A stretch of DNA of 64,000 nucleotides from an uncultured Clostridia bacterium (GTDB lineage Bacteria > Bacillota > Clostridia > Oscillospirales > Oscillospiraceae). The stretch covers positions 62,001-126,000 of the forward strand of contig CAMNQX010000003.1 of NCBI GenBank assembly GCA_946550725.1. The letters are read 5' to 3'. Under the pieces are notes generated by a model that was not told the DNA's origin, did no database searches, and was given only the letters and a program-made list of their open reading frames with translations. This document shows positions 23,135 through 59,014 of this stretch, piece by piece. A program made the position numbers and the translations under genes. The first letter of the stretch is position 1; each line of letters opens with the position of its first letter.

Positions 23135-23268
23135 GAAGCGCGAGCATAGGCGCGCCGCCGGGGATGGACCGGAGCGAGGGGCGAATTGGTAAGCGGCCAA
23201 AGGCCGCGCGATTTGCCCCGAGACGGAGGGAAGCCACGGCGACAAGCGCGCTCAATGCGAGCGTGACA
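23135..23268 (+). repeat. Stop-codon-adjacent hairpin element, copy A
   Basis: GAAGCGCGAGCATAGGCGCG...ATGGACCGGAGCGAGGGGCGAATTGGTAAGCGGCCAAAGGCCGC..ATTTGCCCCGAGACGGAGGGAAGCC...CAATGCGAGCGTGAC. Confidence 0.8.
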
Positions 23269-23307: not shown

Positions 23308-24921
23308 ATGGCTAACATCGACCTCACTAAGTACGGCATCACCGGCGCGACCGAGATCCTCCACAACCCCTCTTATGAGGAGCTTTTCCAGGCGGAGATG
23401 GACCCCACCCTGGAGGGCTATGAGAAGGGCCGGATGACCGAGCTGGGCGCCGTCAACGTCATGACGGGCGTGTTCACCGGCCGCTCCCCCAAGGACAAGT
23501 TCATTGTCATGGACGAGAACTCCAAGGACACCGTGTGGTGGACTTCCGACGAGTTCAAGAACGACAACAAGCCCGCTTCCAAGGAAGCCTGGGACGCCTG
23601 CAAGGCCCTGGCTGTCAAGCAGCTGTCCGGCAAGAAGCTGTACGTCATGGACGTGTTCTGCGGCACCAACCCCGACACCCGCATGGCCATCCGCTTCATC
23701 ATGGAGGTGGCCTGGCAGGCCCACTTCGTGAAGAATATGTTCATCCAGCCCACCGCTGAGGAACTGGCCAACTTCGAGCCCGACTTCATCTCCTACAACG
23801 CCGCCAAGGCCAAGGTGGAGAACTACGCCGAGCTGGGCCTCAACTCCGAGACCGCCGCCATCTTCAACATCACCTCCCGTGAGCAGGTCATTCTCAACAC
23901 CTGGTACGGCGGTGAGATGAAGAAGGGTATGTTCTCCATGATGAACTACTACCTGCCTCTGAAGGGCATCGCCTCCATGCACTGCTCCGCCAACACCGAC
24001 ATGAACGGCGAGAACACCGCCATCTTCTTCGGCCTGTCCGGCACCGGCAAGACCACCCTGTCCACCGACCCCAAGCGCCTGCTCATCGGCGACGACGAGC
24101 ACGGCTGGGACGACGAGGGCGTGTTCAACTTTGAGGGCGGCTGCTACGCCAAGGTCATCAACCTGGACAAGGACGCCGAGCCTGACATCTACAACGCCAT
24201 CCGCCGGGACGCCCTGCTGGAGAACGTCACCGTGGACGCCGACGGCAAGATCGACTTCGCCGACAAGTCCGTCACCGAGAACACCCGCGTCAGCTACCCC
24301 ATTGACTTCATTGAGAAGAACGTGAAGAAGGTCCATTCCGCCTCCTTCGGCCCCGCGGCCAAGAACGTAATCTTCCTCTCCGCCGACGCCTTCGGCGTGC
24401 TGCCCCCCGTGTCCATCCTCACCCCGGAGCAGACCCAGTACTACTTCCTCTCCGGCTTTACCTCCAAGCTGGCGGGCACCGAGCGGGGCATCACCGAGCC
24501 TACCCCCACCTTCTCCGCCTGCTTCGGCCAGGCCTTCCTGGAGCTGCACCCCACCAAGTACGGCGAGGAGCTGGTCAAGCGCATGGAGAAGTCCGGCGCC
24601 AAGGCTTACCTGGTGAACACCGGCTGGAACGGCACCGGCAAGCGCATCTCCATCAAGGATACCCGCGGCATCATTGACGCCATCCTGGACGGTTCCATCC
24701 TCAAGGCTGAGACCAAGAAGATCCCCTACTTCAACCTGGAGGTCCCCACCGCTCTGCCCGGCGTGGACTCCGGCATCCTGGATCCCCGCGACACCTATGC
24801 CGATCCCGCCGAGTGGGATACCAAGGCCAAGGATCTGGCCGGCCGCTTCGTGAAGAACTTCGTCAAGTACACCGGCAACGACGCCGGCAAGGCTCTCGTC
24901 GCGGCTGGCCCCGAGGTGTGA
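23308..24921 (+). CDS. pckA: Phosphoenolpyruvate carboxykinase (ATP)
   Basis: [48 protein letters not shown]. Confidence 0.97.
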
Positions 24922-24955
24922 GCGTAGACACAATGTGTCCAACGCGAACATGACA
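24922..24955 (+). repeat. Stop-codon-adjacent hairpin element, minimal copy B
   Basis: GCGTAGACACAATGTGTCCAACGCGAACATGACA: outer stem and ends only. Confidence 0.6.
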
Positions 24956-32320: not shown

Positions 32321-32450
32321 GAAGCGCGACCCGTAGACACGCAGGCGTGGATGGAGCGGCCCGCACGGCAAAAACAGGCCGGGCACAGCCCGGCGGCATT
32401 TTGCCAAGGGCCGGGAAGCCACGCCGCGGCGTGTCCAACGGGAGCGTGAC
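32321..32450 (+). repeat. Stop-codon-adjacent hairpin element, copy C
   Basis: GAAGCGCGACCCGTAGACACGCAGGCGTGGATGGAGCGG...GGCAAAA...TTTTGCC...CCGGGAAGCCACGCCGCGGCGTGTCCAACGGGAGCGTGAC, starting right after nrdR TGA. Confidence 0.8.
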
Positions 32451-32481
32451 AGCCCCAATCGGACACACCGTGAATAAGCGG

Positions 32482-32637: not shown

Positions 32638-33858
32638 ATGGCAAACAAGGACATCAAGAAGGTCGTTTTGGCGTATTCGGGAGGGTTGGACACCTCCATT
32701 ATCATTCCGTGGCTGAAAGAGAACTACAACGACCCGGAGATCATCGCCGTCTCCGGCGACGTGGGCCAGGGCACCGAGCTGGACGGGCTGGAGGAGAAGG
32801 CCATTAAGACGGGCGCCTCCAAGCTGTACATCGAGGACCTCACCGACGTGATGGTGGACGAGGTCATCATCCCCTCCATGATGATGGGGGCGAAGTATGA
32901 GGACTATTTGCTGGGCACCGCCTTCGCCCGGCCGGTGATCGCCAAGCGGCTGGTGGAGATCGCCCTCAAGGAGGGGGCGGACGCCATTTGTCACGGCTGC
33001 ACGGGCAAGGGCAACGACCAGGTGCGTTTTGAGCTGGCCATCAAGCGGTATGCCCCGGGGATGAAGATCATCGCTCCCTGGCGGGAGTGGGACATCAAGG
33101 GCCGGGACGAGGAGATCGACTACGCTGAGGCCCACGGCGTGCCGTTGAAGATCAGCCGGGAGACCAACTACTCCAAGGACAAGAACCTGTGGCACCTGAG
33201 CCACGAGGGCCTGGACCTGGAGGACCCGGCCAGCGAGCCGCAGTACGACAAGCCCGGCTTTTTGGAGATGGGGGTCTCTCCCATCATGGCCCCCGACAAG
33301 GCCACCTACGTGACCATCGACTTCGTCAAGGGCGTACCCACCGCCGTGGACGGGGTGAAGATGAAGGCCAGCGACATCATCCGCAAACTCAACGAGCTGG
33401 GCGGAGCCAACGGCATCGGCCTTTTGGACATCGTGGAGAACCGCCTGGTGGGGATGAAGGACCGTGGGGTGTACGAGACCCCCGGCGGCACCATCCTTTA
33501 CCGCGCCCACGAGGTGCTGGAGATGATCACCCTGGACAAGGACACCAAGCACATGAAGACCAAGCTGGCGGTGGACTTTGCCGACCTGGTCTACAACGGC
33601 AAGTGGTTCACCCCCCTGCGGGAGGCCCTGTCCGCCTTTGCCCTGGACACCCAGAAGCACGTCACCGGGCAGGTGAAGCTGAAGCTCTACAAGGGCAACA
33701 TCATCACCGCCGCCGTCACCAGCCCGGAGACGCTGTATTCCGAGAGCCTGGTGACCTTTGAGGAGAGCGACTACGACCAGAAGGACTCCCAGGGTTTCAT
33801 CAACCTCTGGGGCCTGCCCGACACGGTGCAGGCGCTGCGGGAGCAGGGCAAGCTGTAA
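32638..33858 (+). CDS. argG: Argininosuccinate synthase
   Basis: [36 protein letters not shown]. Confidence 0.97.
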
Positions 33859-33983
33859 GCGTCCGAGCCGTGGTGAGCAGCGCGGATGGACTGGAGCGAG
33901 AATCAAATTGGTAAGGCGGTGTAGCCGCCGCGATTTGATTCGAGTCGGAGGGAAGCCGCGCGTCGCGAACAGGCGAGGCGTGA
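33859..33983 (+). repeat. Stop-codon-adjacent hairpin element, copy D
   Basis: GCGCGGATGGACTGGAGCGAGAATCAAATTGGTAAGGCGG..CCGCCGCGATTTGATTCGAGTCGGAGGGAAGCCGCGC, begins directly after argG TAA. Confidence 0.8.
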
Positions 33984-34011
33984 TAATGAGCAAGTACAAG
34001 GAGCGATTCTG

Positions 34012-40256: not shown

Positions 40257-40864
40257 AACTCCACTACATGGGCAAATTCAGCGGCAACGTGGCCGACATC
40301 CCCCATGGAGAGCACAAGCCCAACGCCGTGAAATTCAAGGAGGCGGACGACCCCAAGAAGCTGGCGGTGATTGCCAACGCCTGGGCCTTGGTCATCACCC
40401 TGGTGTGCCTTGCAGCCTACGGGGCGCGGATCGGAATGGCGGGGCTGGAGAGGGGCTTTGCCGTATGGGGACAGATGATGATCGGGTTCGGCCTTGCCAT
40501 GCTGTCCCTCTTCCCCCACGAGTTTCTTCACGCCGTCTGCATGAAGGAAGACGTGTACCTCTACACCAACTTCAAGCAGGGGATGCTGTTCGTCACGGGG
40601 CCGGAGGATATGTCCAAGGCCCGGTTCGTCTTCATGTCCCTTTGTCCCAACCTGGTGTTCGGGCTGATCCCCTTCGTCCTCTTTCTGATCTGGCCGAACC
40701 TTGCGGTACTGGGCGCGCTGGGGGCGCTGTCCATCGGCGCGGGGGCGGGGGACTACTACAACGTGTTTCACGCTCTGACCCAGATGCCCAAGGGGGCGCG
40801 GACCTATCTTTATCAGTTCAACTCCTGGTGGTATCTGCCGGAGAACAAGGAGGAACAGGCATGA
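40253..40864 (+). CDS. DUF3267-like membrane protein with zincin motif
   Basis: LSLFPHEFLHAVCM (HExxH) in a multi-TM protein; ATGA overlaps with argD and argF. Confidence 0.7.
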   Translation: MKLHYMGKFSGNVADIPHGEHKPNAVKFKEADDPKKLAVIANAWALVITLVCLAAYGARIGMAGLERGFAVWGQMMIGFGLAMLSLFPHEFLHAVCMKEDVYLYTNFKQGMLFVTGPEDMSKARFVFMSLCPNLVFGLIPFVLFLIWPNLAVLGALGALSIGAGAGDYYNVFHALTQMPKGARTYLYQFNSWWYLPENKEEQA

Positions 40865-41790
40865 AAAAGGACCTTTTGAAGCTGCTGGACCTGTCCAAAG
40901 AGGACATTTTGACCATTCTGGACACCGCCGACCAGATGAAGTACAGCCTCAAGCACGGCATCCCCCACCGGGTGCTGGAGGGCAAGACTCTGGCCATGAT
41001 CTTTGAGAAGAATTCCACCCGCACCCGCGTCTCCTTTGAGACGGGGATGTATCAGCTGGGCGGCCACGCCCTGTTTTTGTCGGGGAAGGAGAGCCAGATC
41101 GGCCGGGGAGAGCCCATCGAGGACACCGCCCGGGTGCTGAGCCGCTATTGCGACGGCATCATGATCCGCACCTACGCCCAGGACGAGGTGGAGACCCTGG
41201 CCAAGTACGCCTCCATCCCCGTCATCAACGGCCTCACCGATTTCTGCCACCCCTGCCAGGTGCTGGCCGACCTGATGACCGTGCGGGAGAAAATGACCCG
41301 GCTGGAGGGGCTGAAGCTCACCTTCATCGGTGACGGCAACAACATGGCGAACTCCCTCATCGTGGGCGCGCTGAAGTGCGGCATGAAGGCCGCCGCGGCC
41401 TGCCCCGAGGGGTACGACCCCGACCCGGCGGTGCTGGACTTTGCCAAGGGCTTTGGGCGCGATTTCACCCTCTGCCGCGACCCCAGGGAGGCCGCCGCAG
41501 ATGCGGACGTGATCGTCACCGACGTGTGGGCGTCCATGGGGCAGGAGGAGGAAAAGGCCAAGCGGGAGAAATCCTTCGCCGGGGTCTATCAGGTCAATGA
41601 GGACCTGATGAAGCTGGCCCACGAGGGCTGCATGGTGCAGCACTGCCTGCCCGCCCACCGGGGAGAGGAGATCACGGCGGAGGTCTTTGAAGCCCACGCC
41701 GACGAAATTTTTGAAGAGGCGGAGAACCGCCTCCACGCCCAAAAAGCCGTTATGGCGATCCTGATGGGAAGCGCGAGGGTAGACGCATAG
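40861..41790 (+). CDS. argF: Ornithine carbamoyltransferase
   Basis: FEKNSTRTRVSFETGMYQLGG, NGLTDFCHPCQVLADL, VQHCLPAHRGEE. Confidence 0.96.
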   Translation: MKKDLLKLLDLSKEDILTILDTADQMKYSLKHGIPHRVLEGKTLAMIFEKNSTRTRVSFETGMYQLGGHALFLSGKESQIGRGEPIEDTARVLSRYCDGIMIRTYAQDEVETLAKYASIPVINGLTDFCHPCQVLADLMTVREKMTRLEGLKLTFIGDGNNMANSLIVGALKCGMKAAAACPEGYDPDPAVLDFAKGFGRDFTLCRDPREAAADADVIVTDVWASMGQEEEKAKREKSFAGVYQVNEDLMKLAHEGCMVQHCLPAHRGEEITAEVFEAHADEIFEEAENRLHAQKAVMAILMGSARVDA

Positions 41791-41833
41791 CCTCGGATGG
41801 AACGGAGCGAGGGGCGGGCTTGTGGCCCGCCCC
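41768..41833 (+). repeat. Stop-codon-adjacent hairpin element, half copy E merged with a terminator
   Basis: GAAGCGCGAGGGTAGACGCATAGCCTCGGATGGAACGGAGCGAGGGGCGGGC-TTGTG-GCCCGCCCC then TTTTT; contains argF stop TAG. Confidence 0.7.
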
Positions 41834-41849
41834 TTTTTGCACCTACATT

Positions 41850-42001
41850 TGTGTAGGGCGCGACCACTGGGCGCGCCGGGTCGTCGCGCCCTGCGGATGA
41901 GACTTGCAACGTTGTTACGTAGGGGTCGATGTCCTTATCGGCCCGCCAACGGACGCACGATTCACAGACGTATTGTAGGGGCGCACATCGTGCGCCCGCG
42001 C
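41850..42001. repeat. GTAGGGGC-type dispersed repeat copy or copies
   Basis: TGTAGGGCGCGACC..., GTAGGGGTCGATGTCCTTATCGGCCCG, TGTAGGGGCGCACATCGTGCGCCCG. Confidence 0.65.
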
Positions 42002-49135: not shown

Positions 49136-50197
49136 TTGAGCATCGATTTTTCCGAGAGCGGCTTTGAGACGGAGCAGCCGCTGGTAGCCACCTCCCTTCT
49201 CCGGGAGGACGACGGGGAGTATTCCCTGCGCCCCAAAACACTGACGGAGTATATCGGGCAGAGGAAGGCCAAGGAGAACCTGACGGTGTTCATCCAGGCG
49301 GCGAAGCTGCGCAACGAGCCGCTGGACCATGTCCTGCTCCACGGCCCTCCCGGCCTGGGCAAGACCACCCTTTCGGGCATCATCGCCAACGAGATGGGGG
49401 TGAACATCCGCATCACCTCCGGCCCGGCCATTGAAAAACCCGGCGACCTGGCGGCGCTGCTCACCAACCTCCAGGAGAATGACATCCTCTTCGTGGACGA
49501 GATCCACCGCCTCAACCGGCAGGTGGAGGAGATCTTGTACCCCGCCATGGAGGATTACGCCATCGATATCATCATCGGCAAAGGCCCGTCGGCCAACTCC
49601 ATTCGGCTGGACCTGCCCCGGTTTACCCTCATCGGGGCCACCACCCGGGCGGGGCAGCTCTCCGCGCCCCTGCGAGACCGGTTCGGGGTCACCCTGCGGC
49701 TGGAGCTGTACACCCCCGAGGAGCTGGCCCTCATCGTGAAGCGCTCGGCGGGCATTTTGGAGGTGCCCATCGAGGACGCGGGAGCCATGGAGATCGCCAA
49801 GCGCTCCCGGGGCACCCCCCGCATCGCCAACCGGATGCTCCGCCGGGTGCGGGACTTTGCCCAGGTGAAGGCGGGAGGCATCATCACCCGCCAGGTGGCG
49901 GACGAGGCGCTCACCGCCCTGGAGGTGGACCACCTGGGGCTGGACGCGGTGGACCGGCGGATGCTCCGCTCCATCATCGACAACTACCGGGGCGGCCCGG
50001 TGGGGCTGGACACCCTGGCGGCCACCATCAACGAGGAGTCGGTGACGCTGGAGGACGTGTACGAGCCGTATCTCATGCAGCTGGGCTTCCTGACCCGCAC
50101 CCCCCGGGGCCGGTGTGTGACGGTCAAGGCGTATCAGCATCTGGGCCTGAGCGTGCCCGGCGGATTTGACGGCGGGATGGAGCAGTTGACACTGTAA
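49136..50197 (+). CDS. ruvB: Holliday junction DNA helicase RuvB
   Basis: [58 protein letters not shown] start. Confidence 0.96.
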
Positions 50198-50304
50198 GCG
50201 CGAGCATAGGCGCGCCGCCGGACTTGGAGCAGAGCGAGGCCAAAAACAGGTTTGGCGAGCGGCGGCGAAAGGACGGCGACCAGCGCGCCCAATGCGAGCG
50301 TGAT
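50198..50304 (+). repeat. Stop-codon-adjacent hairpin element, copy F
   Basis: GCGCGAGCATAGGCGCGCCGCCGG.. and ..GGCGACCAGCGCGCCCAATGCGAGCGTGA, matching copy A ends; directly after ruvB TAA. Confidence 0.75.
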
Positions 50305-50328
50305 ATCATTGGAGGAAGAAGGGCGACT

Positions 50329-58398: not shown

Positions 58399-58404
58399 GC
58401 TGCT

Positions 58405-58534
58405 GTCACGTTCGCATTGGACACGCTGACGGCTTCGCTTCCCTCCGACTCGGGCTGAATCACGGCGGCTTGCCGCCTACCAATTCAGCCCCCGCTCCAG
58501 TCCATCGAAGCCTGCGTGTCTATGCTCACGCTTC
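58405..58534 (-). repeat. Stop-codon-adjacent hairpin element, copy G (best-paired full copy)
   Basis: Minus strand GAAGCGTGAGCATAGACACGCAGGCTTCGATGGACTGGAGCGGGGGCTGAATTGGTAGGCGGCAAGCCGCCGTGATTCAGCCCGAGTCGGAGGGAAGCGAAGCCGTCAGCGTGTCCAATGCGAACGTGAC. Confidence 0.85.
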
Positions 58535-59014
58535 CGGCCTTGCCAGACCGTGAATGAAACCGTTTAAGGCAGGGGAGAGCACGTCGGCGGCCACCACCGT
58601 GTTTTTGTAGATCAGCAGGGACACCTGCACCCCCTGCTCTCCGGTGGGGTAGTTGAGGATCTGATATGTATACCGCTTGACCGTCCGCCCGGCGTACTTG
58701 GCCAGGTCGAAGCCCTGGCTGCTCTGCAGGGCCAGGTAGTCGTCGTACTCGCTGCCCATCTCCTTGGGAATGAGCAGCTCCTCCACCGCCAGCGGCTCCT
58801 TGCTTACCAGCCAGCCGTGGGCCTCCAGATAGGCCAGCCGGTCCTCAGCGGTGCGGATGCCCTTGGGGGAGACGGTCTCTCCGGCGGCGGCGGTGGGTTC
58901 GCCGCCCAGAGCCGTCACCGCCAGCACCAGGGCACAGACGAACACCACCACGCCGCCCAGGGCGGCCAGCCGACGGCGGGGAAGTTTGATGGCGCGGATC
59001 ATCATAAAGATCAT
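58526..59014 (-). CDS. DUF4830-like membrane-anchored protein
   Basis: N-terminal TM, RLAYLEAHGWLVSKEPLAVEELLIPKEMGSEYDDYLALQSSQGFDL..; stop lies in repeat copy G. Confidence 0.65.
   Translation of the reverse strand: MIFMMIRAIKLPRRRLAALGGVVVFVCALVLAVTALGGEPTAAAGETVSPKGIRTAEDRLAYLEAHGWLVSKEPLAVEELLIPKEMGSEYDDYLALQSSQGFDLAKYAGRTVKRYTYQILNYPTGEQGVQVSLLIYKNTVVAADVLSPALNGFIHGLARPEA

Follow-up and report, generated by a model that had tools for sequence, protein, structure and literature searches.

A family of hairpin repeats near stop codons in Oscillospirales gut bacteria

In this work, we describe hairpin repeats of about 130 bases in gut bacteria of the order Oscillospirales, which are a family without an earlier name. 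Paired mutations, which keep the shape while the letters change, mark them as a folded single strand, RNA or DNA, under selection. They are best read, at a probability of roughly 0.6, as non-autonomous mobile hairpin repeats, whose folded sense strand would be recognized by an enzyme acting in trans, and which would be inserted by stop codons and carried in mRNAs.

Copies in the window and architecture of the element

Seven intergenic segments had been singled out by the first-pass annotation within the window, i.e. the whole stretch of 64,000 nt that was analyzed, and all of them are matched by a covariance model (Table 1). Twelve copies of the same genome went into the model, among them the 23.1k and 58.4k copies, which match by construction; the five remaining ones (32.3k, 33.9k, 50.2k, 24.9k and 41.8k) are outside the model-building set. 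The motifs and stem pairs originally quoted are as described, and all seven copies are real, with the qualification that the 41.8k copy is truncated, the 24.9k copy internally deleted, and the 33.9k copy built on a second base type. A search of the whole genome, a 1.76-Mb draft, which the annotation had proposed, produced 42 copies at E<0.01.

Table 1. Copies of the element in the window, with host genes and the position of the host stop codon relative to the first base of the element (CM, covariance model score)
Copy	Feature	Coordinates	Strand	Evidence	Host gene	Stop position	Surroundings
23.1k	full copy, apical subtype A (AATTGGTAAG)	23136..23268	+	CM 147.4 bits	Na+-decarboxylase beta subunit	+1	next gene pckA (NCBIfam); stop TAA ends 1 nt upstream
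24.9k	mini copy, 42 nt, outer stem only	24914..24955	+	CM 39.1 bits; fold	pckA	-8	at pckA stop, preceding a terminator-like hairpin; ORF 23308-24921 ends in the element's GTG-TGA
32.3k	full copy, apical subtype B (CAAAAACAGGC...GCGGCATTTTG)	32322..32451	+	CM 71.5 bits, z -6.85	nrdR	+1	next gene argG
33.9k	full copy, type II base	33857..33985	+	CM 87.2 bits	argG	-2	next gene argH; argG TAA completed by the element's first AA
41.8k	partial copy, 5' half ~41769-41833	41769..41878	+	CM 26.9 bits; fold	ornithine carbamoyltransferase	inside element (second TAG, 41788-41790)	stop supplied by the element (ORF 40405-41790), then a T-rich terminator-like hairpin
50.2k	short full copy, 110 nt	50196..50305	+	CM 70.4 bits	ruvB	-2	next gene glmM; ruvB TAA completed by the element's first AA
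58.4k	full copy, subtype A	58404..58533	-	CM 142.3 bits, z -5.70	unnamed ORF	-8	ORF 58526-59014 (minus) stops at the TGA within GCGTGA; then a separate terminator-like hairpin
58.4k	conserved 5' end AAGCGYGAG	58525..58533	-	position profile, 12-copy alignment			
58.4k	conserved 3' end CGTGACA	58404..58410	-	position profile			

When folded, the sense strand forms a single long rod, in which covarying stems alternate with conserved purine-rich internal loops, over a total length of about 110-145 nt and between fixed ends, (G)AAGCG...CGTGACA. The consensus of the 5' arm is (G)AAG-CGY-GA-SNRT-A-7 bp-A-7 bp-[ATGGAYYGGAGCGA]-9 bp-[apical cassette], and the 3' arm continues, after the apical cassette, as 9 bp-[GAGTCGGAGGGAAG]-7 bp-linker-7 bp-CA-4 bp-GA-RCG-TGACA. 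The conserved purine-rich internal loop is thus formed by ATGGAYYGGAGCGA / GAGTCGGAGGGAAG, with two further stems between it and the outer stem. The latter features a tandem G-A of the YGAR/YGAR type, formed in the 58.4k copy by the 5' end AAGCGYGAG with the 3' CGARCG, and a second tandem G-A flanks the apical stem. At the 3' end, CGTGA is nearly invariant in the position profile, the copies having been chosen for GTGA, and is followed by CA in 90-94%.

Three types of base, with the ends AAGCG...CGTGACA common to all, could be distinguished: type I, RTAG.../CCAA; type II, GCCGTCGTGAGCAG / GTCGCGAACAGGC (given as GCCGTGGTGAGCAG / GTCGCGAACAGGC in the 33.9k copy); and type III, GAAGCGG...CCGCTTC. 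The apical cassette similarly comes in sets, namely AATTGGTAAG/GCGATT, CAAAAACAGG/GCGGCATTTTG, GCGAGCG/AGACCAGC and AAAAGCCCAAGG/GGGTTTT. Mini copies and remnants measure 37-58 nt. When compared with dinucleotide shuffles, the six window copies folded gave z values of about -2.6 to -6.9, and the sense strand folds more stably than the antisense in all three copies compared.

Some variants were also observed. A copy located after a prfB-like gene (L061:1501-1684) carries an extra segment of about 50 nt within the conserved internal loop. In the genome of another Oscillospirales family, hairpins resembling the apical stem (AAATTGGTAAGCGGGC...) are found without the rest of the element (L070:1501-1544 and L075:1501-1544). 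Type II copies of G004, a same-genus relative, and of other relatives (L077, L081, L085, L169-L177) sit inside a larger composite repeat, GCCTGGCAAAAAATACAGAG ... TCTCGGCCCGCAAACGTGCG.

Covariation and distribution of the family

In the alignment of the 12 copies, 93.7% of the cells pair and 23 of 40 pairs show a two-sided change in one copy or more; shuffle and slide controls score much lower on 4 of 5 measures. In an alignment of 105 copies taken from other genomes, two-sided changes were counted in 745 cells, as opposed to 194 in shuffles; having been fitted to the model, this alignment leans towards structure. Significant covariation (E<0.05, tree-simulated null) was found for 23 of the 36 structural pairs, 41 pairs being significant overall, by a purpose-written, R-scape-like test, based on a FastTree tree, independent-site simulation and an APC-corrected G statistic. 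The compensatory change around conserved purine-rich loops, reported at first on a handful of stems, is thereby confirmed. Divergence per site is uneven, 0.278 in stem columns versus 0.086 in internal-loop columns.

Stem mismatches are far more often purine-purine than pyrimidine-pyrimidine, and G-U exceeds A-C. This bias, together with the greater stability of the sense strand, speaks for folding of the sense strand and not for a double-stranded cruciform; RNA and single-stranded DNA would give the same covariation signal. Both readings initially offered, a selected RNA or ssDNA structure and a mobile hairpin repeat, are consistent with this evidence.

Related Oscillospiraceae, where a search had also been suggested, do carry the family: within the host family, model R2 detects it in 24 of 201 genomes and 14 of 106 genera. 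Recognizable members were also detected in four genomes of two other Oscillospirales families (L197-L199 among the loci). Copy number varies from 0 to 25 among relatives of the same genus, the highest figure being that of G004. When GTDB genomes were searched with an exact two-ended pattern, 69 stretches matched, most of them in records named Oscillospiraceae or uncultured bacteria; the isolate Pseudoflavonifractor sp. An85, Lawsonibacter sp. and Candidatus Enterenecus avicola are represented among them. In a class-wide draw of 292 genomes, matches were found only in the genome under study and in one other of the same family, large surveys being run with stricter filters. As far as tested, the element is confined to the order Oscillospirales. 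Carriage by phages or plasmids was rejected, no match having been found in either, nor in IMG/VR for the two-ended pattern.

The initial view that this is not a recognized named family stands. The window, searched against Rfam 15 at the gathering threshold, shows no family on the element, the only matches being two tRNAs, and three copies searched at a relaxed threshold gave only weak sub-gathering matches, away from the element. Literature searches for described repeats in the carrier genera returned nothing relevant. An earlier computational detection is possible: a report of 3161 candidate human-microbiome RNAs leaves 20 palindromic ones unexplained (PMC8040213).

Location at stop codons and signs of mobility

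Every copy had been said to begin at, or to overlap, a stop codon. This is true for all seven in the window, but not beyond it: taking open frames of at least 100 codons and stops between -25 and +6, this applies to 27 of 37 copies in the whole genome and to 69 of 130 across all genomes, versus 6.4% at random positions. A same-strand stop ends between -2 and +6 nt from the first base of the element in 48 of 130 first (i.e. non-tandem full) copies; the mirror test, made at the 3' end, gave 2 of 128, and random positions 2.2%. The Fisher p of 1.7e-14 for the two ends is nominal, copies being related by descent at some orthologous sites. For the genome under study, these figures are 18/37 and, at the 3' end, 0/37.

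The favored distances are -2, 0 and +1, found in 15, 7 and 14 of the 48 sense copies, respectively, along with -8 and -14. At -2, a TAA or TGA is completed by the AA or GA of the element, while at -8 and -14 the gene is ended by a TGA or TAG lying inside the element, in frame and near its 5' end. Type II copies are far less tied to stops (3/26), and many of them, in G004, follow a separate hairpin.

Other locations were also noticed. Some copies are read through in frame (L111:5193-5321, L119:5194-5322, L122:3532-3663, L090:7342-7470, L166:1501-1632 and 2014-2148), forming part of the basic C-terminal tail of an apparent DEAD-box helicase in several species. Two lie by apparent tRNA genes (L041:1501-1631 and L052:267-398), the former directly 3' of the tRNA end.

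Copies are dispersed, and present or absent at orthologous sites, by which small mobile palindromic repeats are recognized. Element-free orthologous sites were found at a fba-like gene, tpiA-gpmI and pgk-tpiA (genes named from protein ends), and the element follows pgk in 3, and groES in 4, of 17 genomes read; some of the sites that look empty are in fact deletion remnants. Copies also form head-to-tail tandems, separated by short spacers, in which types may be mixed, as in the II-I-II array of L107. At the groES site the flanks are 93-97% identical and the element 77%: the inner cassette differs, and the outer stem is kept with one compensatory change from G-C to A-T. Over the sites occupied across species, outer-stem differences are two-sided in 13 cases, one-sided in 4 and broken in 2; such occupancy, with mostly compensatory change, would fit a selected host function too. 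No target-site duplication was detected in 149 copies, beyond the effects of tandem copies. The best pair of copies within the genome under study is 95.5% identical and the median 68%, so that no recent burst is visible. Nor was a longer autonomous version, featuring both ends and a gene between them, found: the sole long span, L121, consists of two unrelated ends.

The same stops host other repeats in relatives. Different small inserts are located after pgk (L208, L221 and L205) and after groES (L230, L234 and L239); beyond them the 3' end of the gene itself is repeated, which suggests a different type of insertion, with a long duplication. Pairs of GTAGGGGC-type REPs follow the stops of pgk (L210) and groES (L238), and a GTAGGGGC-type repeat is found at L164:1447-1932, inside a RAYT gene of the genome under study, between phoH-like and ybeY-like genes.

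Possible origin and relation to known repeats

In the favored reading, the folded strand would be recognized by an enzyme supplied in trans, whose insertions would leave no target duplication and would preferably place the AAGCG end at a stop codon, thereby bringing the element into the 3' UTR or the intercistronic spacer of ordinary genes. Having its own stop codons (TGA or TAG) near the 5' end, its insertion into the last codons would be tolerated. Once in place, copies may be duplicated head-to-tail, may swap inner cassettes with other copies, and may decay by internal deletion. A sub-question of this reading, not exclusive with it, is whether insertion is random, with survival only of copies just after stops, in the stop-supplying orientation. 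We consider this somewhat doubtful: the in-frame TGA or TAG, and the other small repeats found right after stops in relatives, argue for it, but copies flush with an intact stop dominate the narrow interval (-2 to +6), those at 0 and +1 having no need of the element's stop, and 3' ends abutting facing stops are as rare as the mirror test indicates. Selection alone may nevertheless explain part of the positional bias. That the internal-loop motifs of the folded sense strand are read by a mobilization system not described before, inserting preferentially at translation stops, is a bolder proposal, and a decidedly unlikely one; if true, gene ends would be tied to a mobile structure made of RNA or ssDNA.

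The sense orientation at stops, the sense-strand structure with its conserved loops, the housekeeping operons among the hosts and the sites keeping occupancy with compensatory change could also be explained by a host-beneficial, cis-acting RNA, i.e. a 3'-UTR or intercistronic hairpin which would protect or process the upstream message, or tune operons such as groES-groEL, argG-argH and pgk-tpiA, and which recombination would have spread and selection maintained. This is unlikely, given that most orthologous sites of relatives, and most genera, are without the element, that copy number is so variable within a genus, that host genes have no common function, and that in-frame coding copies and tandem arrays exist. 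Membership of a REP/REPIN family, moved by RAYT, an IS200-like Y1 transposase, is very improbable. The genome under study (G000) does encode two RAYT-like proteins (NF047646, below cut-off), and REPs, too, lie downstream of genes, but RAYT matches were found in only 5 of the 20 element-bearing genomes, several of which are incomplete, and none in G004. Moreover, the two RAYT loci of G000, as read, contain no element, one of the genes containing a different GTAG repeat, and the RTAG-like positions 11-14 are not a fixed unpaired tag: position 11 is A in 48%, G in 33% and C in 19%, is base-paired and covaries with its partner. The REP-type transposase partner suggested by the first-pass annotation was therefore rejected as a consistent mobilizer, few carrier genomes having RAYT; no mobilizing enzyme was identified in the carrier genomes. 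Location downstream of genes might finally suggest a family of intrinsic terminators, the chances of which are practically nil: the element has no T run, separate terminators follow some copies, many copies precede co-directional genes, and just one of 63 stop-adjacent copies scores as a terminator, which refutes this as a general explanation.

The element is most likely an analogue of the ERIC, BOX and REP repeats, not a member of any of them. ERIC (or IRU) sequences of enterobacteria, about 127 bp long, are intergenic, form a long stem-loop, are co-transcribed with their neighbors and affect mRNA stability depending on orientation; they feature 7-bp TIRs, TA ends and target duplications (PMC2229807, Table 1). 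Length, dispersal between genes and the long stem-loop are similar. In contrast, the Oscillospirales element ends in AAGCG...CGTGACA, shows neither the TA ends nor the TA duplication of ERIC/RUP/NEMIS-type MITEs, and the 58.4k copy found no match in 20,395 E. coli records. Pneumococcal BOX repeats are likewise modular, with a predicted RNA fold, are transcribed as 3' extensions, and encode the gene's stop in 36 of 58 overlapping CDSs (PMC3049150). However, BOX, in Streptococcus, joins boxA to boxC through a variable number of boxB units, while the element described here is a single nested rod with an exchangeable apical cassette and whole-element tandems; the distinction is drawn from the description of BOX, our alignments showing no tandem inner modules.

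REPs, found mainly downstream of genes and in many cases probably transcribed (PMC3733652), share with REPINs, BIMEs and the present family a palindromic nature and this location. They are, however, 20-40 bp long and carry unpaired GTAG or CGTC tags, whereas the element measures about 130 nt and its GTAG-like letters are paired and not fixed; neither a fixed unpaired GTAG nor a RAYT gene flanked by the repeat was found. Integron attC sites also have variable stems, recognized by their fold, and are located just after the stop codons of cassette genes. They differ in their RYYYAAC/GTTRRRY ends, as opposed to AAGCG and CGTGACA, and in that the copies described here follow housekeeping genes and do not lie in cassette arrays.

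The described small palindromic repeats that we found are mostly from Proteobacteria, streptococci and cyanobacteria; the present family belongs to a major order of gut bacteria. It shapes the 3' ends of housekeeping genes, such as nrdR, argG, ruvB, pgk and groES, and in one case, the tail of the apparent helicase (named from sequence), has turned coding. With this family, one can cleanly address whether selection acts on such repeats as RNA, as ssDNA or as both, and which enzyme moves them.
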